Assembly (NCBI RefSeq): GCF_032854445.1
Contig: NC_088304.1
Location: 9,807,704-9,871,703, forward strand
Direction of reading: 5' to 3'
DNA from: Liolophura sinensis
Taxonomy: Eukaryota; Mollusca; Polyplacophora; Chitonida; Chitonidae
Length of the DNA: 64,000 bases
Within the stretch, counting starts at the first letter, position 1; each line of letters opens with the position of its first letter. The notes under the pieces are model-generated. The model did not search any database. It saw only the letters and a program-made list of their open reading frames with translations, and was not told where the DNA came from. Made by a program: the position numbers and the translations under genes. Below, one piece after another: positions 20,936 through 60,300 of this stretch.

Positions 20936-22224
20936 ATTCAGCCCCCTCCTGAAAAGGGAAATATTCTTGAGCAAGTAAATAAACTAATTACATAGGTATA
21001 AGTGATTCTATCAGTCACGCTGATTAGACAAATCATTATGCACAGTCCATATTTCATATATTTTATTATCCATATTGTTGAGTATACAACATTATAAGTG
21101 TAAATAATATTCCAACAATAAAGCAATGAGAAATGTTCAATTAGTATTTTGCTAAATACAAACGAGGGTTTGGCCCATGTACAGTGATTCGACCGATCTG
21201 GCTGTATTAGCAGGGATATCTGTAAGTAAGCTTCATAAAACAAGCCCATGTAGGGGCTATTTTTACGATGGGGGAATCCCTCGGAATTGTTTCAGGCCAG
21301 ACAAACCCAGTAATTCGCTACCATCATGTTTACATACAACACACTATCATCTCACACGTCGACGTTGCTTTAATTCCTGTTACATCAGCATTTGCCACTG
21401 TAATCAGTGAGCTTTACGGTTTGGCCAGCATGACTTTGCATTTTGCAGACACCATATGTAATGCCGCTAGTTGTATATGGCACAAAGTTTTGCAATGCAC
21501 AACCTGCTTGTATCCGAAGAATAAAAGCACCATATATTATTCACACTTGGTTTACATGATAATTTTCGTTCATTGATCACGCGCTGCATCATCTTTTTTT
21601 CAAAATAAATACAAATATTCAGCTGTAACATACACGTCGTTATTGTTGAAAACGGTACACTATTGCAAGTGCCTTAATGTTTGCGTGCGCATGGTCAGGA
21701 TCCCAAAGTTGCTCACGTACCTGTACACAAGATGGCCCGAGTTCTGTCATGGTTAAGGGTGAAGTCACCAGCAAAAGGATCTAAATTAACCAACTTTGAA
21801 GTCTTAATTACAGTTAAACGTCATGATGATGGTTTTCACGAAAATTAGGCTCGCCCAGTCACAGGTCTACAGGCTTCTCTGAGAAACTTTTATTAAAGAA
21901 ATTAGTAATAATTCCTATAATTTGATGAGTTCAAGATATAACCCTCGAAGAAACTTAACCACCATTGTATGCAAGTGACGTATATTCTTTAGTACGGGAT
22001 CAAAAAGCACCTGTCAAAGGAAATTTCACGTATTTGTGACTGGTACCTTTCTGGATCAAACACTTCCGGGTCAGTCCAGTAGCCATGGTGGATCATGTAA
22101 ACAGGTAAAGCGACGGTCATGCCAGTTGGAATATGGATACCTTTTTATTGTGACGTCACGCTTACATACTCTGTCCATCCTGCAGAGAAATTAGAACTAA
22201 TATCATCATTTTACATGGTCTTCC

Positions 22225-22400
22225 AGGGGTCTCTCACCAATGCGGCCGCTTTGATTTCGAATTCAGCTCCTCGCCGGTAGTGCGTGGGAATATCTGCCAA
22301 CAACCTGTGAGTGGTTGTGGGTTTTTCCTCGGCCCTGCCCAATTTTCTCCCACCATAAATTCTTGAGCACGGCGTAAAACACCCATCAAATAAATATATA
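22225..22400 (+). mobile_element. SINE family 1 copy
   Basis: The body runs from TCTCACCAATGCGGCCGCTT through GAGTGGTTGTGGGTTTTTCC to the tail GGCGTAAAACACCCATCAAA. It is inserted upstream of the broken P450 exon 12, in its intron. Confidence 0.75.
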
Positions 22401-22875
22401 TAATGACGAAGACGGTGATGATGATGCTTTTAATTCACACATTTGTATGCCAAGCCTAAGTGTGCCCCAACATTATTATTTTTCTCAAATTCTTTGCATC
22501 GAAACAGATATTCGTATACCAGCCGTCAACAAGAATTGGCTTTCCGTGGGTCAACAATCGCAGAACAAATTCTCAAAACAATGATGAACCCAAAACACCA
22601 CTAACCACCAGAACTATGTAAGTGCGTAAAGAAAGAAATTACGTGAAAAAGTTTTCAGTGATAACAGAGAGACGGAAGGAATAATCTAGGCAAAAGCGTT
22701 ATATCAGAATCCAAATGGCGTGACGTGTTGGTCCTTTATATAGTTTTGATGACGAAAATAGAACAAATGTGAAGTTGACGTGGAAATCTTCACGACAATA
22801 CAGAGGCAATGGTTATGATGCTCAAAAAAGCCCTTATGAATTAAGATGGCCATGATGATAATAACAATAAACGAT

Positions 22876-22950
22876 CATGGTGGTGGTGGTGGTGCTGCTG
22901 CTGCGGATGATGACGACGATGACGACAATGACGACGATGATGCTGATGAA
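22876..22950 (+). repeat. Trinucleotide microsatellite beside the broken exon 11
   Basis: GTG, CTG and GACGAT units lie about 40 bp from the 22986 end of the exon 11 copy. The matching intron of the intact P450 holds a similar repeat at 31925-31990. The polyhistidine frame read on the minus strand is an artefact. Confidence 0.8.
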
Positions 22951-23687
22951 GGGACAAAGAGTACATACATAATAAAGACACTAACCTTGCGATAGGAGGA
23001 TTTATACGCAGTCCCTCTTGAACTACCATGTCTAGATAAGACAGCTTGCCGACAGTTTCGTAGTCAGGAACTTTTCTTTAAAAAATATAAAAACATTTTG
23101 ATATAAAGTTTGGTTTTAACGCTTTAATGTCTTCTCTTGGAACTTTGGTGCCATCAAAAGTAAGGAGCCTTTTAAAGCAAAATAAAGCGGTCGAAGCAAA
23201 AGCAACTGTTGAAAATGTACCTTTTGTTCCTGACACTAAAATTCAACCCAAATTTAAAATGGTCAAAAACTGCACAAAATCCATAATGAGCACAATACTT
23301 TCTCAATATTTTACTACTGATGGAAACGACTTCAACAACACGTGCACCTTTCTATTGGTAATCACAGCTGAACATAGGGGTACAGTAGGTGAATCACCAA
23401 TATGAGTGAGAGTGACTGACAGGTCACGGGTGACTTACATACGGGTAGTGCTCGAGTAATCTCAATAAAAAATTTGTCCATGTGGTCAGGAATCAGGGCC
23501 AGGTGGTAGAACAGGTGTGTGAGTGAGTGAATGGTGACTTACATCCGGGTAGTGCTCGTCAATCTCGGCGATAAGCCTGTCCATGTGGTCAGGATTCATG
23601 GCCAGGTGGTAGAGCAGGTGGGCCAGTGTTGAAGCTCTCGTATCGTAACCCGCTATGAACAGCTTTAGCGTGATCTCTCCAGTATAC

Positions 23688-24575
23688 CTGGAAATACCAT
23701 AAGAATTCACTAGCTTTTTTGGACACTGTAAACAACTTCAGTGTGAACTCTCCAGTATACCAGGAAATGCCATAAGAATTCACTGGCTTTTTGGACACTA
23801 TGAACCATTTCAGTGTGAACTTTCCAGTATACCAGGAAATACCATAAGAATTCACTAGCCTTTTTGGACACTATGAACAACTTCAGTGTGAACTCTCCAG
23901 TATACCTGGAAATACCATAAGAATTCATTAACCTTTTTGGACACCATGAACAACTTCAGTGTGAACTCTCCAGTATACCTGGAAATACCATAAGAATTCA
24001 TTAGCCTTTTTGGACACTATGAACAACTTCAGTGTGAACTCTCCACTATACCAGGAAATACCATAAGAATTCACTGGCTTTTTGGGCACTATAAACCATT
24101 GCAGTGTGAACTCTCCAGTATACCAGGAAATACCATAAGAATTCATTAGACTTTTTGGACAATAAGAACAACTTCAGTGTGAACTCTCCAGTATACCTGG
24201 AAATACCATAAGAATTCATTAGCCTTTTTGGACACTATGAACAACTTCAGTGTGAACTCTCCAGTATACCAGGAAATACCATAAGAATTCATTATCTCTT
24301 TTGGACACTATGAACCATTTCAGTGTGAACTCTCCAGTATACCTGGAAATACCATAAGAATTCATTACCTCTTTTGGACACTATGAACAACTTCAGTGTG
24401 AGCTCTCCAGTATACCTGGAAATACCATAAGAATTCATTACCTTTTTTAGACACCATGAACAATTTCAGTGTGAACTCTCCAGTATACCTGGATATGCCA
24501 TAAGAATCCATTTGTCTTTTTGGACACTGTGAACAATTTCAGTGTGAACTCTCCGGTATACCTGGAAATACCAGG
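23688..24575 (-). repeat. 73-bp minisatellite carrying splice-acceptor and exon-edge copies
   Basis: About 12 units of 72-73 bp (GGACAC marks near 23721, 23794, 23867, 23939 ... 24520). On the minus strand each unit reads TTCTTATGGTATTTCCAGG TATACTGGAGAGTTCACACTG AAGTTGTTCATAGTGTCC with few changes, that is an acceptor-like CAG followed by an exon-like edge. The array runs without a break into the hybrid exon at 23543-23687. The unit is homologous to the array at 38151-38900 in the intact gene. Confidence 0.9.
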
Positions 24576-24599
24576 TATACGTCTTATAAACTGTACACC

Positions 24600-24790
24600 G
24601 CATAGAATAGTTTCACCAATACGGTCGTTGTAAGTTCAAGTCCGGCTCATGCTGACTTCTTCTCCGGCCGTAAGTTGGAAGGTCTTCAGCAATCTGCGGA
24701 TGATCGTAAGTTTCCCACGGGCTCTGCCCGGTTTCCTTCAAGAAATATTCTTGAGTACGGCGTAAAACACCAATCAAATAAATAAATCAA
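24600..24790 (+). mobile_element. SINE family 1 copy
   Basis: It contains TTGTAAGTTCAAGTCCGGCTC (B-box-like), CAATCTGCGGATGATCGTAAG and the tail CGGCGTAAAACACCAATCAA followed by ATAAATAAATC. Confidence 0.8.
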
Positions 24791-25214
24791 AACATGAGAT
24801 GTGGTTGTGTGTTTAAAGTCTTCTTTCAAAGGAATAGACAACGGAAAATCGTAATGCTTTTTACTTTGGAATTTTGGATTTCTCCATCTATGAATCGTCT
24901 ATACCACAGATGAAGTAGTCTATAGAATCTGACAAGAACACAAAGATATCAAATACATAAATCAGAAAACAATTATTTATCTACATATCTTCCGACAAGA
25001 TGGTATATTTTCGAACATGGCGTCATATATTGGTAACTTGTTTGCAGAGCCTAGCATACTGCGTACTTATTTACGTATTGGCATGTTCATAAAACAATAA
25101 ACCTCACCCAAACATCCGCCCGTAAGTCTTAAACCACTCCTCGCATGCATCCAAGAATCCCTTTAAAAAATCATAGTTTTCAGTTAAAACCATATGAAGT
25201 TTAATATGACTTAA

Positions 25215-25315
25215 ATAATGTTGGGTTTCCTCCCACCATAATGCTGGTCGCCGTGGTATAAGTGAAATATTCTTGAGTACGACGTTAAACAACAAATAAA
25301 TAAATAAATAAAATT
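25215..25315 (+). mobile_element. SINE family 1, 3' fragment
   Basis: Only the 3' half is present: CCTCCCACCATAATGCTGGT through AAATATTCTTGAGTACGACG to AACAAATAAATAAATAAA. Confidence 0.75.
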
Positions 25316-25389
25316 ATGTTTTGCTATTCGTTACTATTTAACATACAGACTCATTAGGGGTTTCGCTGTACAGTATGACACTTCCATCT

Positions 25390-27270: not shown

Positions 27271-27560
27271 TAAGCAATGTTTTAATGTGATTGTATCTGA
27301 AGTGTGGTGACAACACAGTATTTTGAATAATTCTAGACCAGTGACGTCTAACAAATTGCCATGAATATCACTGCACTTTTTTTAACCTAATTCTGCGCAT
27401 ATACGCCGTGATGCTAGAGTGCGTGTAATGTGCAACTATTTATGCACTGTGAACAGGTAGAATAAAACCACAACTCAGGTAAATTGATAAGACGCCATAT
27501 TTCACCGGTTACGTGTGACAATTTTCCAGCTATCAGAGTGTCGTTGATGTTTTCCCCTCT
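27270..27560. repeat. Interspersed repeat family B copy
   Basis: TAATTCTAGACCAGTGACGTC, GCCGTGATGCTAGAGTGCGT, GAACAGGTAGAATAAAACC and ATTTCACCGGTTACGTGTGA match the copies at 16120 and 44100. Confidence 0.5.
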
Positions 27561-27939
27561 ATTCTGTATGTCTTAATTAAATTATAAGCTGCTTACGAGC
27601 ATCAGAGAGTATATAGTCTTCAGCATATTTGGATTTAGCCTCGCATTCAAATAGAGTCGTATAATTGCAGTCTAGCTCGACAAATGCACGTGAATATAGC
27701 AGCGCTGCAGGTTTAAATATTTGGTATAATTGTCTAAAAAGTTGATTAATGACAACATAAAATAAAGCCACCGTTAACAGACAGCACTGAAAATTGTACA
27801 TAAAGTACGTTTGTCTTTTTTTAAAGATTGTTTGAACGAAATTCAATGCATTCAAATATTTGGAATTTGTAAAGTGGAATTTCAGTACCACATTGATATT
27901 ATTGGGTGCCGATTTGGCCATGCATACAGTCTTTTCCCC

Positions 27940-28760: not shown

Positions 28761-28834
28761 GATCGCATAATTCGCAGGATTATTCACTGACAGGATCGCA
28801 TAATTCTGAACCATTCTTTAATGGGACCACTTCA

Positions 28835-30544: not shown

Positions 30545-33500
30545 TTATTTCCTGTGTTCAGCAGTTAGCCAGACGCCATCTTTGGTATTGGAGAGAAGAG
30601 GGTTGTCCTTGAATTTCAGTGGTTTCTAAAGCGAAGAAAAGCAGTTACCATATGAATAAAGCATTATAGTCTGTCATTTCAACTTCACAACACCTTCAAA
30701 GGCAAGAGACTACGAAAAATGAAGGAAGCATCTGTAGAAAAACGACTTCCGTGGCCGAGGGGGTTAGCGTGTCAGCAAAGCGCAATGACCCTGGAGCTTC
30801 TCTCCGGTCGCACGTGGGAAGGTCTTGCAACAATCTGTCCGGTTTCCTTCCATCATAATGCTGGCCACCGTCGTAAAAGTGAGATATTCTTGAGTCCGGC
30901 GTAAAACCCCAATCAAATAAATAAATAAGTACATAAACAATATGGCACATCAAATCAAAATAAACTGTAGAAAAACTGTATTTGAAAATACCTTCCCCTA
31001 TACTTCTTAAGACTTTTGTTTTTTTTAATTACAGTTAATTGCAACCAACTGCCGTTTGGTTTGTACGGTGAGCTGTACGGGCCATACTGACTATGTATGT
31101 CGTCTATAACAACATACAACTATGTATTCCGTACAGACACTGTACCACATTACTGGTGTCTACTCACCGTTTTACTGTTGGGGACAAATCTATACCTCTG
31201 TAAGAGTTGGACAATGATGACCTTCATCTCAAACAGAGCCAGTCTCATCCCGATACAGTTTCTGGGGCCGTACCCGAAAGGGATCCACTGGAGCGGATGG
31301 TGTTTCTCCTTGTTTTCCGGGGTGAATCTGACCAATAAAAATCAATTACAGTATCACGTGGTATGTTATTTAGCCAATGAAAATAATGTCTCTGACTTAA
31401 AAAATTATTTATTTGCTCCTTGTTTTACTCCATACTATTTTCATTTACTCCATAGAATTTTTCATTTATACAAAGGCAGGTGACTGGTACCTTTCTGGAT
31501 CAAACACTTCCGGGTCAGTCCAGTAGCCGGGGTCATGGTGAATCATGTATATAGGCAAAGCCACGGTCATCCCGGCTGGAATATGGATACCTTTTATAGT
31601 GACGTCACGCTTACATACTCTATCCATCCTGCAGACAAAACAGACCTAATATCGTTATTTACATGGTTTTAGTCGTCGCTCTCTATACATTACCGCCACT
31701 ACGTGCAATTTTGGATAGAAATACTGAAGAACGCTATGGTGATGAAGCAAAAAGTGATGTCAGAAAAAAATCTGATAGATATGTTTTTTCTTTACTTAGA
31801 GTATGCACAACATGGCTGCAACGGGCAACTAAAACTGTTTTACTGAAAAGTGCTGATCTTAATAAGTGATCTCGCTCTCCTTAAATAAGCCCACATGCGT
31901 TGCACAGGCTCCAGTCAAACTTGTCTCGTGATGACGATGATGCTGATGCTGATAATTACAATGGTGATGACGACGATGATGATGGAGATGAATGGAAGAG
32001 AATACAAGGATAATGAAGATACTAACCTTGCAAAAGGAGGATTTATACGCAGTCCCTCTTGAACTACCATGTCTAGATAAGACAGCTTGCCGACAGTTTC
32101 GTAGTCTGGAGCTTTTCCCTAGACAATTGAAAAACTTTTTTTAACTCTTTACCTTTTTGTTGTATTGTGAATGTTAGCAGGCCTTGCATATAATCTGTTT
32201 TAATCTGGTCTTGCAGTGGAACTGTAGGCTTGGTGACCACCTACTGTTTTAATCCACCGCAACGCTGCATATCAGGACCAGTCATGTACGTTACTGTTAC
32301 AATTGTCTGTCTGTAAACCTTGTTAAAACTTGTTTGTTACTATGCAGTATGTTTTTGTATAAAAATGTACTGTCACTTGTCAAAGGAAACCCAGAGCCCC
32401 GGAACCACCGACTCTGCGATACAATTGTGCCATAGCTGAAGTTACACCAGCTAGTGTGAATCTGTCTAATTTATATGTGCATGTTTTCCTATCGTTCATA
32501 AAGTGTTCAGTACATAAGTAAATCCTGCCTTGAGTGTTCCTGATTACAAATTGTGACCGGCATCGCAATATTTTTAATGTCTCAATTCACAACTGGCTTC
32601 GTTTGGAACTTTGGTGCTATCAAAAGTCAAAAAAGGTTTTTATGTAAAATGTTCAGTTGAAAAAACAAAATTTCATCTCATTTGAGAAACATCCACAAAT
32701 TATAATAAATCCGTTAATAATTAGCTATTTTTGTGGAGGGGAGAGGGGAGGGTTTAAAAATTAAAATTTTGATGGAAGTCTGCTACACAACTTCTAATTT
32801 TACACCTTTCTAATGGTTATAGCTGGAGTACATTAATTGAAAATAAAAAGTGTGCCAAGGTGTGATATCATCGCATATGTATATAGTTGAGTGTCTGTCC
32901 GCCGTCTGTGGTCACTAGACTGATGTTACTAAAAATAGACAACGTAATACAGAGGAATTCTGGGAAATAATTAGTCGTCTTCAAATCACAATCAGTACCG
33001 TCCATGGAACACCTTTCCCGCTCAATGTAATTCGGACGTTGTTTTATGTATTTTTCATTACCCCCCATGACGGTTTGTGCACAAACTGGTAATGCATTAT
33101 TCTTGCATTGCAAGGTTATAATAGTAAATTACACTTCGACCCTATTCGCCATTGCGCCGGAAAAGGAATCCGGTTCTAACACACCAGTTAATTCTTTCGC
33201 CTAGAAAGCACTGGACAGGGCAAACAACGTGCCAAGTAGTTCTGGGCCACGCTGGGCCAAAACATCCGTGCCTATCGGTTGCAGTTTCATCCATGCCATG
33301 TTGCTGGCCGCGCATCGTATAAGTGAAATATTCTTCAGAACGGCGAAAAAACACCAATCGAATAAATAAATAAAATAAATAAATATCGGCCAGACAACAT
33401 AAGGTTTCAAACAATGTTATTTTGCTCAAACCGTCTTAAAACTCGTTCACATGACAACACAACCTGTTAAGGGTAAACAAATAAGGACGGACTCTACTTC

Positions 33501-36500
33501 AATATTCACGACAAAAATACAATCGACTTCGATGCACGAGTAACGTTCAATTCTTTGGGGGATGACTGACAAATGCCGCTTCCATTTTCCTCCCATCACG
33601 TGACCCGTGGATTCCGACTGGAAATGTCATGACTTGGATATGCAAATACGTCATTGTTTCACGTCCAAGGTAATTTATTATTGTGCAAGGTTTCTTGTCC
33701 AAACATGGCGGAATTGCACGGAAGCGAAAAGGCCAGCGTCCAAAAGGCACGGAGTAACTCCGCCTTGCTTGACCGAAACATGACACTAAAAACACGGGTG
33801 CCAGCATCGATGCATAGATTTACCATATCAGGGTAATAATTAAGATTTTCTGAGGGGAAATAGGGTCTAACTTCCAGTTTATCCTGAATCAAGTCTGTAT
33901 TTCCTGCCATTATTTAAAAGAAAAGAAAACCAAAAATTCAACCTCAATTATTTCACAAACGAGCTGGAAACAGACATAAACGGCCACAGCAATTTTCTTC
34001 TGACGAACTTGGTAAGTTTGTAATTTTATTTTTAATCTGGATTTCTTACAAACCCATGTTAAAGAAACCAGAAATAAAATGTCGCGCCACTTGTATCCCG
34101 CGCTCATGCAATGATCGTCTGTAAATACCGACAAGAGATCCGCTGTTTCCGTCAATCACATCCCGATGATGCTCTTAAATCGACCACATAGACCTGTCCA
34201 TGTGGTCAGGATTCGTGGCCGAGGTGTAAAGCAGGTGTTTTGAATAAATCTCGATAAGCGTGTCCATGTCTTCAGGGTTCATGACTAGGTTGTGCTAGGA
34301 CAGGTGTGTGACAGGTGATACATCCGGGTAGCGCTCGTCAATCCCGGAGATAAATCTGTTCGTGTGGTCAAGTGGTAGAATAGATGTGTTAGTGATTGAA
34401 TCAACAGGTGATTGACTCAGTGAGTGGCAGCTGACTTACATCGGGGTAGTGCTATCCATGTGGTCAGGTTTCATGGTCAGGTGGTAGAGCAGGTGTGTGA
34501 TTGTGTGAGTGAGTGACAGGTGACTTACATCCGGGTAGTGCTCGTCAATCTCGGTGATAAGTCTGTCCATGTGGTCAGGTTTCATGGTCAGGTGATAGAG
34601 CAGGTGTGTGATTGTGTGAGTGAGTGACAGGTGACTTACATCCGGGTAGTGCTCGTCAATCTCGGTGATAAGTCTGTCCATGTGGTCAGGTTTCATGGTC
34701 AGGTGGTAGAGCAGGTGTGTGATTGTGTGAGTGAGTGACAGGTGACTTACATCCGGATAGTGCTCGTCAATCTCAGTGATAAGTCTATCCATGTGGTCAG
34801 GATTCATGGCCAGGTGGTAGGACAGGTGCGTAATGACTGACAAAGTGAGTGAGTGACAGGTGACTTACATCTGGGTAGTGCTCGTCAATCTCGGTGATAA
34901 GTCTATCCATGTGGCCAGGATTCATGGCCAGGTGGTAGGACAGGTGCGTAATGACTGACAAAGTGAGTGAGTGACAGGTGACTTGCATCTGGGTAGTGCT
35001 CGTCAATCTCGGTGATAAGTCTGTCCATGTGGTCAGGATTCATGGCCAGGTGGTAGGACAGGTGGTAATGACTGACAAAGTGAGTGAGTGACAGGTGACT
35101 TACATCTGGGTAGTGCTCGTCAATCTCGGTGATAAGTCTATCCATGTGGTCAGGATTCATGGCCAGGTGGTAGGACAGGTGCGTAATGACTGACAAAGTG
35201 AGTGAGTGACAGGTGACTTACATTCGGGTAGTGCTCGTCAATCTCGTCGATGAGTTTGTCCATGTGGTCAGGATTCAAGGCCAGGTGGTAGAGCAAGTGG
35301 GCCAGTGTTGAGGCTGTGGTGTCGAAGCCAGCAATGAAGAACAGGATAGAGGCTGCCAGAATCTCAGAGTCAGACAGACCTACGATGACGTAAGCATATG
35401 TAAACAACACGCAAACAAGATGGTTATACAGACCTAAGATGACATAACTATACGTAACACTGTTGGAACATAGACCTACGGTGATATCAACATACGTAAA
35501 CACTGTCGGAACGTAGATATACGGCGTCATAAACATACATAAACACTGTCAGATAACAGACCTACGGAGACACAAACATATGTCATGGCGAAGCTTCCGA
35601 ATCACATTTCACGCCGTCAACCCGTGAAACCATATCCATCATCAAATTCATAAAAACAACCTATAAAAATAGTTATTTCCAAAGTAACTTAAAGGTCAAA
35701 CTAATCCTGGCTTATACCTTTTCCTTTTCTTTTATCCTTCCAGTGGGTGTCATCCCCACCAGTGTCATCCCCACCAGCCTCATCGACTGCGCCGTTGCTA
35801 TGGGAACCATCGTTATTCTCAGCCGCTGAATCGGCTTCCTTTTTGGCGTTGACCATAAGTTGAAGGAAATCTGAATATTTCTGCAAGGAATAAATGCTTG
35901 CAATATGAGGCGTACTACTATTCGTAAGAGAACTTAATGGCTTTTATAAAAAGTGAATAAAAACATTGTGCTTTTCCCAATACCGCTAGTAACGATACAT
36001 TCCATAGTAAAATACCTTAGTTCGAAGTAAAAGCCCTTGATAGAAAATAATTCAACCGATGGTGGGCCTTATGTAATGAAGCTTGCTAGGTACATCGTTG
36101 TGATTTATCATATGGTCCCCAATAAGGTAAGAACAACAACAACAGCGCCGTACTGTCATAGGGCCGCTCGCCCCAGCTAAAACTATTTGGGCTACTATAT
36201 GGCATCCTGAATGGAAGTGCTTTCATTTCTTCGTTTATTTGAAGCCTTGGTCAAGAATTATCCAGGGTCAGTTTTATGGTGGCTGAACCGGAGAGCCCGG
36301 GGAAAAACCATCGACCTTTGGAAAGTCATTGAAGAAGTTCCACTATATATGACAAGGAAATCATCATGAACGGAACTCGATGAGGTGTGATCATAGATTA
36401 CCCTGCCTTTTATGCCAACCACCCTCCCTCATCCGGGTCAACCACCTGCCTTGGAGATCAGCGGAAAACCCACCCCACCCCAACACAACCCTCTTCCGAA

Positions 36501-39500
36501 AAAAAAAAATGGTCCACAAAAACATACTTACGCCCGGATTTTTTCGTCTCTCCTCCAGAGCCTGGTTTACAACGTTCCTGAAGAATTCTATAGAAACTTT
36601 CGGGGAAATCTCTAGCTTGAAAATCTTGATAAGTGGTGTCAAAAAGGGAAAGAAAACTGAAACCAGAAATTACATGTGACCTCACAGCACATGCGCCGCT
36701 CTCTATGTTCGCTTTATATGTCAGAAAAAAAATCAACACACTTTGGCTCAGCCTTTGTCTCTATTAATACTTTATAAACATGCATACTTTTTATCTGTAT
36801 ACGCAGCATTATTCGAATGGACACCTGGAACAATTTTACTCATGAATGCTGGTTATAGGTCATCACAAGGACATAGGCGGTGAAGTTAAGCTTCAACAAG
36901 CCTACATGCCACACACAGGCCCCAAAGGTCAAGCTTGTCGAGTGGTGGCAGCGATGTATGCGAGCGTAGAGAGCGGTGCATGCGCTGTAAGAAGTATAGA
37001 TCTGTTATATGACTGAATTTGGTCTCATATATTCATGATTCATTGTTGTATTTCATGAGACCCGAGGATAGTGGGTGCAGCTGTGCATGAGTAGGAGAAG
37101 GGGGGTGGGGATGTGGGGGTGGGGGCGCAGGGTGTAATTGCTTCTGAAGACGCCCGTCTCTCACCAATACGACTGAAGATCTCTCTCATCCAGGAGCGAT
37201 TTATACATCAAAGTAGGTAAGGTGCTCTAGTGGGGATTTGATCGAAAGCCGATTCATTCACTGGGTTGATCAAAAATTTTCCTCCATTTTTTGTTTCTAC
37301 CATTTTACACCGTATTACACAAAATGCTGAGGGAAAACTAAACAATGAGGTAGGACGGGAAGTTAGCTTATGGTTGATTCCGTAATTCATTCCAAAAACA
37401 ATTTAGTTCAATTTTCCTGATTCTACAATTTCTACAAACACATAACACATGTGTTCAAATGTATATCTGTTTGTAATAAAGTGTAAATGTTTGTGTTGTA
37501 GGAATGAATACTTTGAGCCATCCAAGTTGATTCAGTGTTATTGTTTCATCAATGTTTCTATCATTATAATTATATACCTATGTTAATTTCAGTCAACTTG
37601 ATGCAATTTTACCCTTTCGAGCCCTTTTCATTTGTGCACCATGCACCACACAATTTCTAACCCAATGCTTCTAACTGCTGGCCAAAAGATCTCTTGGGGG
37701 CTTTTTGGACAATTACCTTCATAGTGTTCTAGTGTAGCACAATGACCCAGTAGCCATCGCTATGAGTTCACCTCCAGCTCATGTTAGCTTCCTCTCCGGT
37801 CAATCGAGGAAGGGCTGTCCTGGCCCTGCCCCGTTTATTCCCACCATCATGTCGCATGGCCGTATGGTCGTATAACTGAAATATTCTGGCGTACAGCGTA
37901 AAGCGCCTATCAAATGAAGAAATAAAAACGCGATATCGTTTCAAAGCATGACCTTAAAAAAGAACTGTATTTTAGTAATGAAGCTAAGGTGGTTCAAAAC
38001 TTACATAAAATTATGAAGGCCATGTTCAGCTTGATATCAAAAAACTTCCTTGCGTATTTGATAAAAGGATCGTCTGGTGAAATCTGAGTGTCCAGTTTCA
38101 TTCCGAAGGCTGTCGCAGCGATGACGTCCATGGTGAAGGCCTCGGTGCACCTATAAATACCGTAATAATCAATTCATTAACCTTTGTGGACATTATGAAC
38201 AAATTCAGTGTGACCCCTGCGAAGTACCTGTAAATACCGTAACAATCAAATCATTAACCTTTTTGGACAATACCAACAAATTCAGTGTGATCCCTCCGAA
38301 ATACCTGTAAACACCGTAACAATCAACCTTTATGGACACTATGAACAATTTCAATGTGAACACTCCGCCATATTTGTAAATACTGTAACAATCAATTCAT
38401 TAGCCTTTTTGGACACCATGAACAAGTTCAGTGTGAACGCTCCGTAATATCTGCAAATAGCTGTAACAATCAATTCATTAACCTTTTTGGACACTATGAA
38501 CAAGTTCGGTGTGAAAGCTCCGCCATATCTGCAAATAGCTGTAACAATCAATTCATTAGCCGTTTTGGACACTATGAACAAGTTCGGTGTGAAAGCTCCG
38601 CCATATCTGCAAATAGCTGTAACAATCAATTCATTAGCCGTTTGGACACTATGAACAAGTTCAGCGTTAACGCTCCGCCATATCTGCAAATAGCTGTAAC
38701 AATCAATTCATTAGCCTTTTTGGACACTATGAACAAGTTCGGTGTGAAAGCTCCGCCATATCTGCAAATAGCTGTAACAATCAATTCATTAGCCGTTTTG
38801 GACACTATGAACAAGTTCGGTGTGAAAGCTCCGCCATATCTGCAAATAGCTGTAACAATCAATTCATTAGCCTTTTTGGACACCATGAACATGTTCCATG
38901 CTCAGTGTGAACGCCAGTGCATACACATGGTAAGAGTCACAATTAATTAAAGGGCAAGACAGCGCTTGGCTAAAACATATTTCAGTGGAAAGCAGGATTT
39001 TTAAGCTTTTGAAAAAGTAACACACTTTATTATTTAAATGAGATGTCACCGAATAACATGTAGAACAAAATGTTAATAGGGCATAAATGGCCATTGTGAA
39101 TCGAGGCAGACATCTTCAGAATTTCATCCAGTCGAACACGTTGCCATCAGATTGCGCGGCCAAAGCTGTGACGTAGCCTCTACCCGTTCACTCCATGAAG
39201 TGACATATGATAAGCCGCGTCAACGAGGGTATAGCAAATAATGTCAGACAGTAGCATACCGTCTCTGCCCAAACCGCATTCACCTCCCAAAATACATTTT
39301 TTGTTGTTCACTTTAGCGTTTCGTCCACAGTTTCTAACTAATAAATATCAGAGTCAATGAAAAACTCATTAGGGATGCCGAAGGTTGATGGGAATGAGAA
39401 GACGGCATCTCACCAGACAATGTTTAAAGTTAATGAAATCTTACGATATCATTTTTTCTCTAAGTTTATGAGAATTGAACAATTTAAATTTTGCTCCTTT

Positions 39501-42500: not shown

Positions 42501-45500
42501 AATACTGTTAGGAACTCCGTCACCGGCGGTTCGGCAATTTCCGCAGCGCCGAAGTCCTGAGGAAACGAATGACACTGAGTCAGATTCTTAGCACATGTAT
42601 ATTTCTACGCAAAACAGTCGTATTACCACTAATAGATTTGACTTTTTTATCAAGTGGGTGAGCTTGGTATATGGTAGATGACAACAGTGTGTTGAGAAGG
42701 GTATGTGTGTATTAAAACCCAGGGTGTGAAATTTTAATCCTGGGATGCAGGTTTTAAATTCCCCAAACCCTTCTCAGTACGAGGATAACTAGTTATATTT
42801 AAACAATGCGCATACTTTATTTAATTCTTTAATTGTTTAAATAGGCTTGGCCTCAGTAAACTATAGTTACTACAGAGGTAATATGTATATGGTCAGAGTA
42901 GCGCACGATCATTTAATACAGATTTTTCAAGACTATTTTGCTTGCCACCATATGTCAAGTAAAACACCGTACCCGTCTGTTGGTAAAACTGTTGAATTCC
43001 TTCACAGTTATCTCCCTTAACATATCCAGGTCACCCACAACCAGCATGGGTTGTTGACCTTCAAAATGGCTGAAACAAGCATCGTAGTGAAAGATTTACA
43101 GAATTTAGAACTATACTTTATATATAATACTTAACTATTTCATTTGATAATTCATTTTGATTTATATGTCCTGGAATATGGATGAGCACACTCTTAACGT
43201 ATAACGAAAACGCCTCGCAAGTTGATATCCTGGCCTCGTAGGGAGACCAACATTTCGGGAGTTCAAACTGGCCATGCAGCAAGTAATTTTTTTTTCTTAC
43301 TGGCACTCTTATTTACGTACAAATCTATGCGTCAAACCAGTCGTCAACCAATAAGGGCGGTTGTGGTCAAGAATTGCAAGGCCAATTCCCAAAACGACGT
43401 TTAACACAAATTACCAAAGAACTAATAAAGTATATGAAGTACGAAAATAGGACGAAATCATGCAAAGAGAAGCAGTCAGCAGTTTTCAATGATGTAGGAA
43501 AGGCGCAAGGTATGTTACAGGCGACTCAGTGAAATCAGTATTCAAACCTTGTAACAAGCTAGAATATAAGTTGTCGATAAATAAATATGTATCTCAGTTG
43601 GGCTTTGATTGCAACTGTTCTTATATGCAAAGTGGCGATCTAATTCATCACGATGATCATACAGCCCCTATCCCCGTGCTAAGTGGCATTAGACACAATC
43701 ATGAAGCAGAGTGCCAGAGATAACAGGATAATTTACGATGTAAAAATTGAAACTATCCATCTTGATACAAAAGCCTGCAACCGACCATTGTATAGCCAGT
43801 TGGAATAGGGCCGCCATTTTGACAAGCCACGTGACGGATCCTTCTGTCCAATCAGAATGCTCAAAACGCTTTATTCATTCCGAATGTGACATTCAGTCTG
43901 AATGTTCAACTCTTAGCCTACAGCGTACATATTTACATATCTGCATATTCATGAGCCAGTCCTCACCCAAACACCCGCCCGTAAGTTTTAAACCACTCCT
44001 CATACGCTTCAACGAATCCCTGAAAAAAAGAAAAAGATATCAACTAAAACCATAGGATGTTTAATCCAACTGACAAAAATGCATTAATATTCGTTACTGT
44101 CTGACAATTAAAGGTGTACAGCATAAAGAGTAAAACCAGAGCAGCGACGACTGTGTGACAGCTTGCAAATGGTCACTCGTAACCGGTGAAATAGGGACTC
44201 TTTTCAGTTTACCTCAGTTAGGCTTTGGTTCCAATTGTTCATGCAAATGTAATTAACACGCCCTCTAACACCGCAGCTTAAGCCGAATTAGGTAAAAAAA
44301 AAAAAAAAAAAAGAAAATGCAGTGATGTTAATTGCAGTTTATTATACGTCACTGGTCTAGAATTACTGTCTTGTCATCACATACATTCACATTAAAGGAG
44401 AAAAAATTTAAATATCAAACAAATACCACTGAAAAGAGTATGCATTTCCTCGCAGGTGCATACCATAAAACAATTCTAATATGTACCTCAAGTTGGAATT
44501 AGGTAAAAAAAAAAATTTAAAAAAAATGCAGTGATGTTAATTGCAGTTTATTATACGTCACTGGTCTAGAATTACTGTCTTGTCATCACATACATTCACA
44601 TTAAAGGAGAAAAAATTTAAATATCAAACAAATACCACTGAAAAGAGTAGCATTTCCTCGCAGGTGCATACCATAAAACAATTCTAATATGTACCTCAAG
44701 TTGATAAATTATAAATAAAGTCAGCGCCAAAATCCGCTGTGGGCGACTCCATTTTGCCTAAAAACTAATCCTAAAGTCTTCTGTGTTAGGAGGAGAATTG
44801 CCGTTGGAAACCGCCGAAGAGCAGTTCGTACATTTCCGGTAGAATTCTTGTTCAGAGAAGGTAGTGAATAGTACAGTTCGTTTTCCGCTTGACGATCGGG
44901 AAACCGGAAGGTTGGACGTAGATTCCGAGTTTACACGAACAAGCCGGCAGTTTTAACATCTCTCATTGGCTGAGAGGCAACACACCCCCAGCATAAATTA
45001 CAGGGTGTTAAAGATGGAGGACGCGATGAACTCAGTGATTTATGCCAGCTTTGCCGTTTTTAGACTTTACGTGTATGGTGAGGAAAAATTGCAAAATTAT
45101 GCAGCAGGCACCGCCAGATAGAAAAAAAGCTGTTTCATGGGTTAATGGTGGGACATCAGTTTATATTTGATAAGACGACAGCTTGTGCGAGTGTGTGATC
45201 ATCTAGGCTCACATACCTTTTTGAAGACAACACGAGCATTCCCCATCATAGGCCACGGGCTGGGGAACGGGACACCCATCTTTTTGAAAACGCCGAAATT
45301 TTTGGTCTGATAGCTGAAACAGACATTACCGTCAATAACATTCTAATCCACACTAGGCCTACACAATGCATGCAGTATGGTCATTCTGTCGTTACCTAAA
45401 TCCCTAAACAGAGGAGATCACATTATCGAGCAAGTGTGTGTATATGCATCGATAAAATGTCCCACATGAACCGAGTTATCGCAGCTCAAAGTGAGGAACC

Positions 45501-46183
45501 CGCGCATACTCAAAAAATCAAGATTTTAAATAATCCTGCCAGTTATTCCTATAAACCGAGAACGCAGCTGTTTTCGATGACGTCACTGGAACTCCGTTTT
45601 GCCTTTTTAACCATATGAGCGTGGGTTACTAGTTACGCGGCATCGGGATTCTGCTTGGCGCCTCCCATCGCATCTTCAGGACTCTGAAAAGAAGCTGATT
45701 TATAGAGTTACCAAGAACGTCCGAACAAAATTCGCAAAGTTTCTGCCGAAAAAACTAGGCCTATAGGCCTATGGTTAAATTAGTTGTTGTGTTTTCATGT
45801 AATAGACGATTATCCCCGTTTCGTGTGCAGCCTGAAGTCAGATATGATGGGTAACTGACGAAGTGCTTTAGTTTAGCCTGTGAGTGAAAAAATCAAAGCA
45901 TTAAACATCAGTCAATCCATTATTAAGTATATGGAAAGTCACTTCGTACGTAGGTTCTACGGTAGGCGCATAACCAGGTACAGGAACATACTTGTACCTG
46001 CTTACCTCCCTTGGTTCTATTTTTAGGCTTTTACAAATACAACGTAAACACACTCCAGTTAGATATCCAGAACTTTAGATCTTCGTTAGCTTATGACATT
46101 GAGACTTACCGGTAAAACAGGATTAACACCGCTACCAAAATGATTACCCAGAGGGGCAGGTTGAACAGTCCAAAGACGTCCAT
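30545..46183 (-). CDS. Cytochrome P450 monooxygenase, CYP3 clan (3A-like), complete, 14 exons
   Basis: Exons on the minus strand: 46110-46183, 45217-45313, 43967-44019, 42973-43069, 42431-42556, 40555-40643, 38005-38150, 36532-36656, 35718-35880, 35222-35379, 32027-32118, 31491-31628, 31168-31327, 30545-30625. All have GT-AG borders with matching phases, total 1599 nt (532 residues plus TAA), a normal P450 length. Residues 1-25 form a hydrophobic microsomal anchor, so the enzyme should sit on the ER face. Visible motifs: C-helix WRHNR (131-135), I-helix AGFDTT (340-345), K-helix EGLR (397-400), PERF across exons 12-13, and heme loop FGYGPRNCIG with Cys477 as iron ligand. Order and sequence (TNRR in exon 4, FFPFLTPL in exon 8) resemble vertebrate CYP3A and CYP5 families. 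The substrate is unknown; xenobiotic or lipid oxidation with NADPH-P450 reductase is the family norm. Exon 9 has an acidic insert with a doubled GGDDT. Confidence 0.93.
30740..30935 (+). mobile_element. SINE family 1 copy in the last P450 intron
   Basis: CGTGGCCGAGGGGGTTAGCG is a tRNA-like A box. The body (CCATCATAATGCTGGCCACC) and tail (GGCGTAAAACCCCAATCAAA TAAATAAATAAG) follow. Confidence 0.8.
31925..31995 (+). repeat. Trinucleotide microsatellite beside P450 exon 11
   Basis: GATGAC/GATGCT units lie about 35 bp from the 32027 end of exon 11, in the same place as the repeat beside the broken copy. Confidence 0.75.
32119..34190 (-). other. Part of P450 intron 10
   Basis: Mostly unique-looking DNA. 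It contains a SINE family 1 3' fragment at 33290-33385 and a block at about 33910-34020 (GAGCTGGAAACAGACATAAA CGGCCACAG) that recurs near 62770-62820. No further exon is seen. Confidence 0.5.
34190..35221 (-). repeat. Minisatellite of P450 exon 10 donor edge (111-118 bp unit)
   Basis: TGACTTACAT (the reverse complement of the exon end plus GTAAGTCA donor) recurs at 34521, 34632, 34743, 34861, 35096 and finally 35214, which is the true exon 10 end. Degenerate units lie at about 34200-34432, and 34979 has a mutated donor (TGACTTGCAT). Each unit holds about 75 bp of exon-like sequence (HLAMNPDHMDRLITEIDEHY in frame), a donor and the start of the intron. Units of 111 bp keep the frame open across copies, so long apparent ORFs here are the array and not an extra gene. 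Confidence 0.93.
36220..36365 (-). mobile_element. Diverged SINE family 1 copy
   Basis: GCCTTGGTCAAGAATTATCC, TTTTATGGTGGCTGAACCGG and GAGAGCCCGGGGAAAAACC follow the family 1 order on the minus strand, with many changes. Confidence 0.45.
37745..37930 (+). mobile_element. SINE family 1 copy in a P450 intron
   Basis: GCTATGAGTTCACCTCCAGC, CCCACCATCATGTCGCATGG and the tail CGTAAAGCGCCTATCAAATG match the family, with divergence. Confidence 0.65.
38151..38900 (-). repeat. Minisatellite of P450 exon 7 acceptor edge (77-78 bp unit)
   Basis: About ten units have GGACA marks at 38188, 38265, 38334, 38411, 38489, 38567, 38644, 38722, 38800 and 38878. On the minus strand a unit reads ATTGATTGTTACAG CTATTTGCAG then GGAGCTTTCACACCGAACTTG. 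The true exon 7 border reads ATTGATTATTACGGTATTTATAG then GTGCACCGAGGCCTTCACCATGGAC, which is clearly related. The array therefore copies the intron end, the acceptor and about 30 bp of exon 7, and it abuts the real exon at 38150. Confidence 0.88.
40200..40385 (-). repeat. Isolated diverged units of the exon 7 edge repeat
   Basis: GTCTGTAAATACGGAAACAA and CTGTAAATACGGTAACAATTC with GGACACAATAAATAAC and TTGTGAACAAGTTTATTG follow the same order as units of the 38151-38900 array, but are strongly diverged. Confidence 0.45.
41380..42370 (+). repeat. 39-40 bp minisatellite in P450 intron 5
   Basis: Units of TGGCTTTGGTTTACTAATATGG GTTACATTTGGCCAATG type recur from about 41380 to 42370. They are broken near 41450-41580 by a family A piece and near 42085-42180 by a copy of the element duplicated at 44280-44705. 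The array ends about 55 bp from the donor of exon 5 but does not include it. Confidence 0.88.
43200..43735 (-). repeat. Interspersed repeat family A, inverted copy
   Basis: CGTCAACCAATAAGGGCGGT, CCCAAAACGACGTTTAACAC, AGAGAAGCAGTCAGCAG and TTGTCGATAAATAAATATG match the 16440-16890 copy. It lies between P450 exons 3 and 4. Confidence 0.6.
44100..44705. repeat. Family B copy followed by a 213-bp tandem duplication
   Basis: GTGACCATTTGC-type blocks and ACACCGCAGCTTAAGCC identify family B. From about 44284, the stretch AATTAGGT, A run, ATGCAGTGATGTTAATTGCA ... ATATGTACCTCAAGTTG is repeated almost exactly from about 44497. Part of it (ACAAATACCACTGAAAA...GCATTTCCTCGCAGGTGCAT) is also found at 42117-42165. 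Confidence 0.8.
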
Positions 46184-54302: not shown

Positions 54303-57300
54303 ATGGCAGCGATAAAGTTGTTAAATCCAAAAGCTGAGGTAGCAAGAGCAGCTCAGGCCTTAGCTGTCAATATCAGTGCAGCAAAGGGATTACAGGATGT
54401 CTTGAGAACGAACCTTGGGCCGAAAGGAACGATGAAAATGTAAGTGTGTTATTTGCGTTGACTTGACAACTGCCGGGGAATTTTCTGGAGCACGTGCTCG
54501 AAATAGACATTTCTTTCTTTTCTCACATATAGACATAGGGTCATTCCTTGACAAAGCAATCCCAAAATATTTTTTTGGGAGTGACTCAATTGGATTATTT
54601 TGCAAAAATTCTTAGACATGCCTTAGCAGGTATGAGGAAGGTTTACCTAGTTACAGATCCAAATTCTAAGTGGTTTTTCAAATATAGCTTTTTAGAAACA
54701 CCATGTAGTGTTCATTAGCATGCACTTATTAGTTTTGGAAGCATTTTTAGATGACTGTCATTTCCTATTCTCTGCACTCGGTGTTCACAGCACACTGCAG
54801 AGCCCTGTGCACCCAAAATCAACCATTGAAACCTTTTGAATCGAGAAATTAAATTGGCATCTGCAATGTACATGCTGGCCGTTTGAAAGACCCGTGAGAA
54901 GGAATTTTTTGAATGTCAGCACGTGGCTTACCGGATCTCGGTACAAGTTAAAATTCAAAACAGAGCAGACCTGCCGAATGAACTTAATAGTATTTTTAAA
55001 GTGTACGGCTTATAACACCAATCTAATATTATAATAAACTGGCTGTTTTTGTTATTACTCCTCAGGCTTGTGTCTGGTGCAGGAGATATCAAACTAACCA
55101 AAGATGGAAATGTTCTGCTTCATGAAATGGTAAGTTTTCCACAGTTAAGCAAAAATGCTTTGAATTACAGGCGAAGTTCGATTTAAAGTCCGTGAGGAGA
55201 CTATGGACATGTTCAAAACAGGTCATAGTTTTATTATATTACAATAGCCTTCTTTGTACACCACTAATCGTTTACTAATCATGTTGCTTCGTATCCAGGT
55301 TGCTGCTGTGTCAGCTACAGCATTGTTTGTTAAAGTATGCTTGTGAATATTGTGATGTAGTGGCTTTCTCAACTCTGGAAAAATGCTTAGGCCTAAAGTT
55401 TCGGACGTTCGGTACTGTCATTTACTTTCGCATGATCTGAGTTGGTGGCAAGATGACAGAAGAGAGTGATAAGCTCCCCCCCCCCACACCCGTTTTATTA
55501 CCCTGCATGGCAGCTCTGGTTGCTAATCTTCACCGCATGGGGTCAAGTCAGTGACAGTGAGGTGTGCAGGACTCCCGACTAGCAGGCCTACATGTACATG
55601 TACATCTCTAAATATACCCATGAATGAATTAAAGAAAGTATCAAGACAGGCGATGCCTATTACAAACCTTTTAATTCCAAACATTATCTCAAAGCATGAC
55701 CACTTTGACCTTCTTTGTATATGCTAAATTCTGCTGCAGCTTTGTATAAGGAGAGCCCTACAGTTCAAACACGGATATTTGACACGACACTCCACACGCT
55801 TCGAGATTCTGGGTAGTCAGGCTTAATGGTCATAAATTTCCCTTTTTCACAAAATAATGATAATAAAACAATCAACCTGTTGTGACGTGCATGTACTTTA
55901 ATCTCATTTTAATTAATACTGAGGAAAAGATGAACTGTTGGTGGTAGGGGAATAGTCTAACCGTTGAGTGAAGCGTGGGCTTGTTTATTTCATTCTTGAA
56001 CTGTCAGTACAGGGTATTCGAAAAGGGCAAGTAGCAGGCTGTAGACAGCTGTCCACTGATGTCGCTGTAGCTGCCTACTTTGAATATTCTTACTATTTAA
56101 ATCAGTAGTAATTGTGACATAATTACTTTTAATTCAGCTGCCTACTTTGAGCTTTGACCTTCTCCAGTTGTAAAAAAAAGCCTATAGTATAATCTCCTGA
56201 CCACCCCTGATGTTCTAACAGACGGTAAAAACCAATCAAAATAGTGATGCGCTTTCCAATTCCCAGGGTGAAACTTTAGGTCATGTACTGTAATCCGGTA
56301 GAATTAAAGCATCACATAAACTGATGAAAAGTTTGATTGTTTTCCTATAAAATGTTAAGGTTTTGTGCAAGAAATGCATCCTGCACTTTGCTCTGTAGTA
56401 TCCTCTTTCTGGAATTTCTTATTTCAGCAAATCCAGCACCCAACTGCCTCCCTGATAGCCCGTGTGGCCACCGCCCAGGATGACATCACTGGGGACGGCA
56501 CCACATCTAATGTGCTCATAATCGGGGAGTTACTGAAGCAGGCAGATCTCTACATAGCCGAGGTATGGTCTTCAGAATCGTTAAGTCAATCCCCCCCACC
56601 TCCCCCACCCAAAAAGTAAAACCTTCTTTGCTAGATGTGATCATTTACCAGCGACATAGATTCACTATAACAGCATGTTTTATTCAAAGACTGAACAAGG
56701 AGATGTGTGCCAGACAGGACTTCAGGCAATTGAGATCCAGCTGTATTCGTCGTAGAAAAAGTGACAATTCATTGATACATAACATGGCAGTGTATTTTAT
56801 CTCATCAAGTATTTTAAATGTGTATTAATTTGACTGGTGTTTTACACCGTACTCAAGAATGTTTCACTTATACGACGGTGGCCAGTATTATGGTGGGAGG
56901 AAAACAAGCACAGCCCGGGGGAATCCAGCGACCATCCGCAGGCCTTCCCACGTACGGCCAGAGAGGATGCCAGGATGAGCTGCACTTGAACTCACAGTAA
57001 CCGCATTGATGAGAGGCTCCTGGGTCTTTAAATATGTAGCCTCTCTATTTAAATATCATTGTAGTCAATACTCCATATTAAATCACTATTTGTGGGTTTC
57101 TTAATTTTCTCACCATCGCTGGCTGATTTTCGCGGTAAATTTCAAGTGATTAGTCAATTAGTCAAATCACTCTTCGTTTTGAACTGCTTTTGCTGATTGA
57201 AATCTTACTTGGACAATATAGGATTATATTTCAAGAGAGTTTAGATAATGCACAGAGCTTCCATCTGGGTGCACTATTGAAATTAGTTTCTAGTATACAT

Positions 57301-60300
57301 GTAAGGTGTTGCATGATTTTTGATTTTCTCAAATGTTTTTTTTTTTTTTTTTTTTCTTTAGATCATTTCTGACATTTCCTTTTACAGACTGAGAGAGACA
57401 ACCACATATTCCATAAGCAGTTAATGCATGACCCTTCTGCCTTGATTCATGACTATTGTATATTTTTAAGTGATGTCAAGATCACTTGCTCATTTTGTGA
57501 GTTTAGTCAATGTGGACTGATGCTCTGGGCTCTAAGCTTTTTGGGCAGGTTTTCACTGGACTGATATCCTGAAACACATGTAACAGTATTATGTATTTAT
57601 GTATTTACTTGATTGGTGTTTTACACCGTACTCAAGAATATTTCACTTACACGACGGTGGCCAAGACTTATGGTGGGAGGAAACCAAGCAGAATCCAGGG
57701 GAAGCCCGCAGCCATCCACAGGTTGCTGACACAGTAACAGTATTAACTTGCAGTGTGTGCCGATTATCAGTTTGCAAAATAAACTAGCTGTGGGAGGCCA
57801 GCTTGAGTTCATAACTAGGCAATGATAATTACTTCAATCAATAAAGTATAGTAACCTACAAAAATAATCAATTTTAGTATCCCAAATGGTTTGTTGAAAC
57901 CAAAAAAATCCCCTCAATTTCAGTTGAAACAAAGAAACTCAATTTCTTCCAGAAAGTTGTGGTCAGCACGTGGAAAAATGACTTCTTTGAACCCCTGCTC
58001 TAATGGCAGTAAATTAATAAAATGTATGCAAAATTGGATGTATGCTAAGTTTGATTATCCTTCCAAATAATGACATTTTATTTTGTGTTTTTATAAAAGA
58101 TTTCCTTTCTTCTTTGCTCTCAGGGTCTTCACCCACGTCTCATCGCAGAGGGGTTTGAGTTGGCCAGGAACAAGGCTTTAGAGGTAAGAGAACAGGCGAC
58201 CATACAAAGTCATGCCGCAAATTTGGACAGAAAATTGGACTAAAGGTGGTTAAGAAAACAGGCGCTTATGAAGTCATGCTGCAAATTTGGACAGAATATT
58301 GGACTAAAGGTGGTTAAGAAAACAGGTGACCTTATGAAATAATGCAGCAAATTTGGACAGAAAATTGGACTAAAGGTGGTTAAGAAAACAGGCAACCTTA
58401 CGAAATCATGCAGCAAATTTGGACAAACTTGGACTAGGTTAGATGGTTAGTTCTGACTGGGAAGAAACTCTGAATTTAGAATTCCTGCTTGACACTGCCA
58501 GGATATTACGATATTTAATTGTTTGATAGTACTTTGTCACTGGTTTACCTTGTTAAGTTTCATCAAACTGGCTACCAAAAAGATGTTCTTGTGACAGGTT
58601 CTAGATGAGGTGAAAATAGCTCGCGAGATGGATCGAGATACACTCATCAATGTAGCGAGGACGTCACTGCGTACGAAGGTTCATGCGGAACTGGCTGATC
58701 TGCTGACAGAGGTAAGAACATAGCGGTGTCAGTAAGAGATACAAAAGTTTCCAGAATTTTTTTTGATTTTGATTTTCTTTTTTAATTAAATAGATGCTGA
58801 ATTTTCTGGGTAATTAAAGACAGTTTACTAATTTTTGCATATAATTAGTCTATTTCCAGTATTTTGACAGTTTTCTGCCATTTTTTCTGCAGTATACTTT
58901 GGCTGGTTACAGTGTCTTATTCTATGTATTTAGGATGATAGAGTGAAAAATGCATCTTAAAAGAACAGCATCAAAGCAGCAGTCATTACTCAGGTCGTGA
59001 TGTTTCATGATTAATTCATGATTATCTATGTTGCAGCACGTGGTTGATGCAGTGCTAGCCATTAAGAAACCAAATGCACCGATTGACCTTCACATGGTAG
59101 AGCTGATGGAGATGCAGCACAAGACTGATATGGACACCACGTAAGTGTAAGCTCACTAGACAGATATGGACACCACCTAAGTGTAAGCTCACTAGACAGA
59201 TATGGACACCACCTAAGTGTAATCTCACAAAGCAGAAATGGAAACCACATAAGTGTAAGCTCTTGACACCGATACCTGCGCTATGTAAGTGTAGGCCAAC
59301 AAGACATATATGGACATCACATAAGTGTAATCTCACAAAGCAGATATGGACACCACATAAGTGTAAGCTCACTAGACAGATATGGGCACCAAGTAAGTGT
59401 AAGGTCACAATACCGATATGGACACCATGTAAGTGTAATCTCACAAAGCAGATATGGACATCAAGTAAGTGTAAGCTCACTATACAGATATGGACACCAA
59501 GTAAGTGTGAGGTCAGAAGACAGATATGGACTCCACATAAGTGTAAGGTCACAAAGCAGATATGGACACCACCATGTGAGTGTAAGCTCGCTAAGCAGAT
59601 ATGGGCACCATGCAAGTGTAAGCTCACAAGATAGATATGGACACTATGTAGGGGTAAGCTCACAAGATAGATATGGATACCATGTGTGATGTCATAAGGC
59701 AGATATGGACACCACCATGTGAGTGTAAGCTCGCTAAGCAGATATGGGCACCATGCAAGTGTAAGCTCGCAAGATAGATATGGACACTATGTAGGGGTAA
59801 GCTCACAAGATAGATATGGATACCATGTAGGAGTAAGCTCACAACACAGGCATGGACACCATGTGTGATCTCATAAGGCAGATGCAGACACTACCATGTG
59901 AGTGTAAGCTCGCTAAGCAGATATGGACACCATGCGAGTGTAAGCTCGCTAAGCAGATATGGACACCATGCGAGTGTAAGCTCTCTAAGCAGATATTTAC
60001 ACCATGTGCGTGTAAACTTACAAAACATATAGGGATACCACTCAAGTGGAAGCTCACTTGGATGTTAAAGATCGCATCAAAATTCTCTTTGATGTCTTCT
60101 GTCTTGAACACAATGTGACCGGTATTTTTCTGAAGGGCCATCAGCTCACATCTTTCAGTAATTCATCCTTTCATAACATGTTGAAATATTCTTTTAAAAT
60201 GAGGAAATGTTCCTGAAAATTTGTAAAAATTTCATACGAGTTTTTTTGTAACTTGATTCTCGTGTTTCTCCCTTGTTTCCCTAGAGTTGAATTTGTAATA

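Follow-up and report, generated by a model that had tools for sequence, protein, structure and literature searches.

Minisatellite-like tandem duplications of intron-exon boundaries have been described from the globin genes BflGb6 and BflGb9 of amphioxus as mirages, a name which, according to the same report, was taken from earlier (2002) work on Adh3 (PMC3087553). According to that report, the amphioxus units measure 10-72 and 150-160 bp, regular splicing is suggested, haplotypes differ, Adh3 shows somatic instability, and the repeats undergo concerted change from which the edges are excluded; a role in intron gain was proposed and the phenomenon was considered possibly general in cephalochordates (PMC3087553). 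Repeats of PGBD5 have been likened to mirages and troponin C has been added to the affected genes (PMC3902484). Here, we describe arrays at splice junctions of a CYP3A-like P450 gene (P450-A) and of CCT6 (TCP-1 zeta) in a chiton, within a stretch of 64,000 bp that we call the window (C10:9807704-9871703). The searches covered 609,464,459 bp in 632 contigs of one assembly, which was first published as Liolophura japonica (PMC11068029), the name being later corrected to L. sinensis (PMC12441733).

The chiton junction arrays are real, recurrent, and of the kind already named in amphioxus, so the original prediction, which held the pattern to be without a known name, has to be amended in this respect (PMC3087553, PMC3902484). 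Both systems have tandem units with an exon edge and an intron edge, on donor and acceptor sides and in unrelated genes, with units of tens to 160 bp, homogenised inner copies but unhomogenised edges, and frequent spare splice signals; the chiton unit lengths (36, 41, 43, 57, 60, 66, 78, 109, and 111-118 bp) lie inside the amphioxus range of about 10 to 160 bp. They differ in phylum (Mollusca for the chiton) and in that a chiton donor duplication was traced through five gene copies and array placement was tested against a uniform null; the chiton arrays are known from one assembly. Human segmental-duplication paralogs also carry minisatellite-scale repeats, some of them at exon-intron borders, but those repeats alter exons or may form novel introns, whereas the chiton models need no changed exon (PMC2812944). 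In the RdRp gene of potato, a tandem duplication with splice sites likewise crosses an intron-exon border, but the outcome there is a new intron, whereas in the chiton existing introns are lengthened by the array (PMC4974935). Among the literature matches listed, judged by titles and the starts of abstracts and with few subscription papers covered, none named mirages outside amphioxus. Their presence in several mollusc genes suggests that mirages may turn up in any genome with rapid turnover of intronic minisatellites, and the chiton offers a second lineage for asking if exon borders attract duplications or simply tolerate them.

In the chiton, the copies start at the exon edge and extend into the intron, the arrays of different genes are unrelated in sequence, and in our gene models the coding sequence joins in frame via the junction attached to the exon. 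The arrays are local duplications of the host genes' own sequence and recur in unrelated genes. We consider it probable, at about 0.7, that they are mirages in the sense of tandem duplications of local origin in which a splice junction happened to fall within the first unit, and random tandem duplications tolerated by splicing can explain most of the pattern. The passage from duplication to retention would then be as follows. Ordinary processes (slippage, end joining, or unequal exchange) would create duplications anywhere in genes; those within exon interiors would be purged by selection, and those spanning a junction would survive, the exon keeping a working junction and the extra copies leaving with the intron. 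Tolerance of such junction duplications may stem from exon definition, in which the splice sites closest to the coding exon are paired. The arrays would afterwards grow, shrink, and homogenise through unequal exchange.

Arrays at exon borders of P450-A and CCT6

The 13 located exons of P450-A join in frame with GT..AG borders and zero internal stops in a splice-bordered model, and the best PDB matches of the product are CYP3A7/3A4 (E about 1e-117). Residues 1-355 of CCT6, modelled likewise, are collinear with TCP-1 zeta in the PDB (E 4e-192). Tandem Repeats Finder (TRF) recovered every array named in the original prediction, and those which it had assigned to a donor and an acceptor of the P450 gene lie at the exon 10 donor and the exon 7 acceptor of our model [Table 1]. 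Border-crossing units occur at five donors of four genes, namely the exon 10 donor of P450-A, the exon 6 donor of CCT6, and, outside the window, one CCT5 donor and two CCT3 donors; at the exon 7 acceptor of P450-A the crossing was recognised by a profile. Both 5' and 3' exon borders are thus affected (exon 10 donor and exon 7 acceptor), the evidence being stronger for donors.

The exon 10 donor array of P450-A holds eight copies, counting the exon and one partial, with 118-bp units nearer the exon and 111-bp units farther away; in the alignment of copies the unit takes in about 78 bp of exon and 40 bp of intron. For the exon 7 acceptor array, we derived a profile from its copies alone; among 2129 exon windows it gave its highest score to the initial 25 bp of exon 7, aligned in splice register, and the exon 7 start also beat the other 22 exon starts; with the profile shortened to 20 bp, 3 of 2244 windows reached the score, and an unanchored test for exon homology detected nothing (p 0.41). 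The exon side of this array is much diverged (identity 0.52 to 0.55), and on the intron side identity to the nearest copy is 0.90. Inner copies are 0.95 identical, with edge copies at 0.59 to 0.66 to the inner ones, values which were measured in this array only. About 2 kb upstream lie two decayed copies of the unit, whose acceptor sites are near 40352 and 40288. Within the sensitivity of the genome search, the unit matched P450-A and its broken copy (B) alone.

A further, decayed array of 43-bp units, absent from the original prediction, lies at the exon 10 acceptor. On its intron side, extension from the splice site beat the controls in an anchored test (0 of 200 as good). The first six exon bases are shared by two of the four copies, and the corresponding exon-side result (5 of 711) is inflated and was not relied on, because the copies had been anchored partly by the very bases tested; an unanchored test of exon homology gave p 0.55. 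With the exon-side test biased and the unanchored test negative, we call this array border-reaching, its entry into the exon being uncertain. The unit has a single genome match, in P450-A. Exon 10 of P450-A accordingly bears unrelated arrays at both borders.

In CCT6, the array claimed for the exon 6 donor was borne out: the 36-bp unit crosses the border with 23 bp of exon and 13 bp of intron, the array has 27 rows including the junction and one partial, and the genome search matched the CCT6 locus alone. For the exon 4 donor, at which a possible junction-spanning array had been proposed, the claim stands in part. An array begins at the donor and abuts the border, but spanning is not supported, the exon homology being not significant (30 of 711 controls as high with the best of four registers; unanchored p 0.74).

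Several other repeats near these exons were set aside. The 39-bp array of P450-A intron 5 was rejected as a further donor array, its donor homology being at background level; a short insert within it (42075-42165) resembles, by eye, a 209-bp duplicated element near exon 3. That 209-bp duplication (44285-44703) has no contact with a junction. Local matches at the exon 13 acceptor of P450-A and the exon 9 donor of CCT6 were weak single matches and were excluded from the counts.

Table 1. Genes, exons, and arrays of the window, in window positions (position 1 is its first base)
Feature	Position	Strand	Details
P450-A exon 10 donor array	34452..35299	-	TRF 34452-35291; donor 35222; 118/111-bp units
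P450-A exon 7 acceptor array	38151..38896	-	TRF 38155-38896; acceptor 38150; 78-bp unit, intron end and exon start
P450-A exon 10 acceptor array	35380..35587	-	TRF 35441-35580; 43-bp unit, four copies
CCT6 exon 6 donor array	59118..60057	+	Donor 59140; 36-bp unit, TRF and copy alignment
CCT6 exon 4 donor array	58184..58436	+	TRF 58185-58436; donor 58183; 66-bp unit
B array	23653..24573	-	73-bp unit, homologous to P450-A exon 7 array
B donor duplication	23429..23620	-	Two copies, 103 bp; TRF, blastn, genome search
39-bp array, P450-A intron 5	41599..42341	-	89 bp from exon 5 donor; purely intronic, counted as miss
P450-A, CYP3A-like	31168..46183	-	13 exons found; C-terminal exon not located
P450-A exons 1-7	46183-46110, 45313-45217, 44019-43967, 43069-42973, 42556-42431, 40643-40555, 38150-38005	-	
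P450-A exons 8-13	36656-36532, 35880-35718, 35379-35222, 32118-32027, 31628-31491, 31327-31168	-	
Broken P450 copy B	22040..25220	-	Remnants homologous to P450-A exons 3, 10, 11, 12
CCT6 (TCP-1 zeta)	54303..64000	+	Exons 1-9 and start of exon 10
CCT6 exons 1-5	54303-54439, 55066-55129, 56428-56562, 58124-58183, 58598-58711	+	
CCT6 exons 6-10	59037-59140, 60346-60456, 60784-61026, 63111-63207, 63903-	+	

The broken P450 copy and the number of independent origins

Copy B was identified by tblastn and blastn and by a Pfam p450 match. The original prediction had counted an acceptor array of this copy among the recurrences; the array is present, but it does not represent an event of its own. It matches the exon 7 array of P450-A along its entire length (blastn), its profile fits exon 7, at rank 2 of 2129, but does not fit exon 10, and the array homology ends and the homology to the I-helix exon (the homolog of P450-A exon 10) begins at the shared letters TTCAT. 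For these three reasons we read it as a relocated exon 7 array: B probably lost the intervening stretch, so that the exon 7 array came to adjoin another exon.

The 103-bp donor duplication of B likewise has the same unit as the exon 10 donor array of P450-A. This unit also occurs at three paralogs near C10:11.23, 11.27, and 11.28 Mb, and the genome search matched it to P450 copies on C10 alone. The simplest reading of this distribution is that one donor duplication preceded the spread of the P450 family and grew later in P450-A, gene conversion being an alternative. Since the arrays of B are not new events, the earlier count of events must fall, and the independent origins in the window come to at most three for P450-A, with one or two for CCT6. 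With eight copies in P450-A, two in B, and two to three in each paralog, the exon 10 donor duplication of these five P450 copies provides a natural series for dating array growth.

Placement relative to exon borders and rival explanations

Because the window was picked for its arrays, the sole fair test of placement is a set of genes fetched without regard to repeats, for which we used CCT1, 2, 3, 4, 5, 7, and 8 and HSP60, modelled by a spliced aligner against human protein queries. Arrays with a period of at least 30 bp within the modelled spans were counted. TRF rows with a period <30 bp or <1.9 copies, exons <25 bp, the dubious end exons of CCT5, CCT3, HSP60, CCT7, and CCT8, and a stretch of CCT1 (6172-9254) were dropped; the P450 loci L051 to L057 were left out of the statistics, and, except where noted, the 43-bp exon 10 acceptor array of P450-A is scored as a miss in tests that use TRF. 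In this repeat-blind set, 4 of 15 arrays touch a junction, with 2.4 expected under uniform founder placement (P 0.20) and 1.7 when the density of arrays lying wholly within introns sets the null (P 0.10); an excess at exon borders, and with it the preferential seeding put forward in the original prediction, is therefore not established, and a border bias of about twofold is also compatible with the data. The CCT5 donor unit comprises 97 bp of exon and 12 bp of intron, and of two donor arrays in CCT3 one has a unit of 44 bp of exon and 22 bp of intron and the other enters the exon by 25 bp.

Read by eye, the first copies of the 66-bp CCT3 donor unit (L044, gene-oriented 7484-8338) are in frame and free of stops, so that splicing from a later donor would lengthen the coding sequence by 22 codons for every unit. 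Mirages can mislead gene prediction, and they are raw material for new introns or for alternative donors, of which this unit is an example. Another P450 gene (L055) has a 57-bp array of many exon-derived copies at the donor of its large exon; in CYP17A1 alignments this donor is homologous in L053 and L054, where TRF gave no array near it.

In the two window genes, P450-A and CCT6, 4 of 7 arrays touch a junction, with 0.6 to 1.3 expected (P 0.003 to 0.019), and 5 of 7 with the 43-bp array included (P 0.0001 to 0.002). A separate test found 4 of 7 arrays ending at a junction where 1.2 were expected (P 0.017 to 0.021), and when spanning units were counted the result was 4 of 7 (P 0.014) if the 43-bp array is included and 3 of 6 (P 0.069) if it is left out. 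A first unanchored junction scan had a flawed donor null, its pool containing arrays, and was superseded by a scan for a nearby same-strand copy of each 36-bp window (score at least 16). Such copies were found for 1452 of 6762 intron windows, a count which is inflated because each array yields many windows, for 5 of 109 donors and 4 of 109 acceptors, and for 11 of 581 windows in exon interiors, with 0.9% among unrelated pairs. This ranking, from introns through junctions to exon interiors, is what removal of exon duplications by selection would be expected to produce.

Several points weigh against tolerated random duplication as the explanation. In the pooled genes, 8 of 22 arrays touch a junction, against an expectation of 2.5 to 3.8 (P 0.004 to 0.022), and 9 of 22 do so with the 43-bp array included (P 0.0007 to 0.006), so a border bias may exist. 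The repeat-blind positives are confined to two of eight genes, with three arrays in CCT3, one in CCT5, and none in the other six, and so the events are possibly not independent of one another; the array at a CCT3 acceptor, which is among these four, enters the exon by just 1 bp. As the sample is small, the placement test is weak in both directions. Undisturbed splicing is predicted from in-frame gene models, and the mutational step itself is inferred.

We regard it as unlikely that tandem duplication is border-biased genome-wide, by about twofold or more over selection and chance, through a transcription or splicing process that marks junctions; were it so, amphioxus and chitons would share this process, by convergence or by its generality where minisatellites turn over fast. 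It is more doubtful still that exon borders are mutational hot spots at which breaks coupled to splicing or transcription, or R-loops, seed the duplications. The excess in the window genes and in the pooled set, together with the arrays at both borders of exon 10 of P450-A, would fit such hot spots, but the excess is not significant in the repeat-blind genes and the window had been chosen for its arrays. R-loops, a candidate named in the original prediction, would predict a uniformly G-rich coding strand, whereas the coding-strand GC skew over the five window arrays at junctions is mixed and ranges from -0.34 to +0.24 (P450-A exon 7, +0.18; exon 10 acceptor, +0.10; exon 10 donor, -0.34; CCT6 exon 4, +0.24; CCT6 exon 6, +0.07). 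The alternative that the original prediction itself offered, tolerance by selection of duplications in which a functional junction remains, has the best support.

The spare junction copies might instead be functional, as decoy splice sites or binding sites of splicing factors kept by selection, which we hold to be very improbable. The donor GT is retained in five of the six full spare copies of the P450-A exon 10 array (the sixth has GC), and in the CCT5 copies and first CCT3 donor copies that were inspected, and most exon 7 acceptor copies of P450-A have CAG where the real site has TAG. Retention of GT says little, because the copies that keep it are nearly identical throughout. Conservation in the diverged array of CCT6 exon 6 falls to 0.42 in column -1 and 0.69 in column +1, which belong to the least conserved positions (29 of 36 columns are >0.8), and the first three copies past the exon have lost GT, as have some copies of the second CCT3 donor array; the splice signals of spare copies are thus not visibly protected in the diverged CCT6 array and are kept in near-identical arrays. 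Scarcely likely, too, is that the arrays are intermediates of intron gain by tandem duplication as in the Rogers model. The duplications do carry splice sites, the amphioxus authors proposed this route (PMC3087553), and the potato duplication crossed a junction in a similar way (PMC4974935), but in our models excision of the introns at the outer borders would leave the coding sequence intact, which makes an extra intron needless; the arrays may come to play such a part in the future. A mobile or introner-like element that inserts at splice junctions and carries the repeats is the least credible of these explanations and extremely improbable. The arrays of P450-A and B are homologous, but these two are gene duplicates; the units hold the host exon's own sequence and differ among genes, and the units of the P450-A exon 7 and exon 10 acceptor arrays and of CCT6 exon 6 match their own loci alone in a genome search that skips very common words. 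The claim of a recurrent local process, as opposed to one spreading repeat, is upheld by this confinement of units to their own loci and by the separate arrays of CCT3, CCT5, and L055.

Other features of the window

Pfam scans covered positions 1-15000 in six frames, 15001-30000 in five of six frames, and 40001-54998 on the minus strand, and in these parts they gave p450 and transposase-related matches and two matches below the cut-off (DsbD_N, E 0.0056; DUF7327, E 0.16), with no further clear host gene. A DDE_3 transposase match lies at 7465-7896 on the minus strand (E 4.5e-13), adjoined by two weaker helix-turn-helix matches. Between B and P450-A, the unit of an array at 28265-28752 is, by eye, like a single stretch upstream of P450-A exon 3, near 44060-44200. 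Intron 8 of CCT6 contains a 237-bp direct repeat (61886-62122 and 62468-62704) whose copies are 98% identical and 582 bp apart, with no TRF array. A dispersed element of the length of a short interspersed nuclear element (SINE), which may resemble a molluscan V-SINE, has copies found by blastn at 24613-24795, 25224-25323, 30841-30934, 33296-33376, 48428-48519, 49976-50078, 56823-57012, and 57591-57685.

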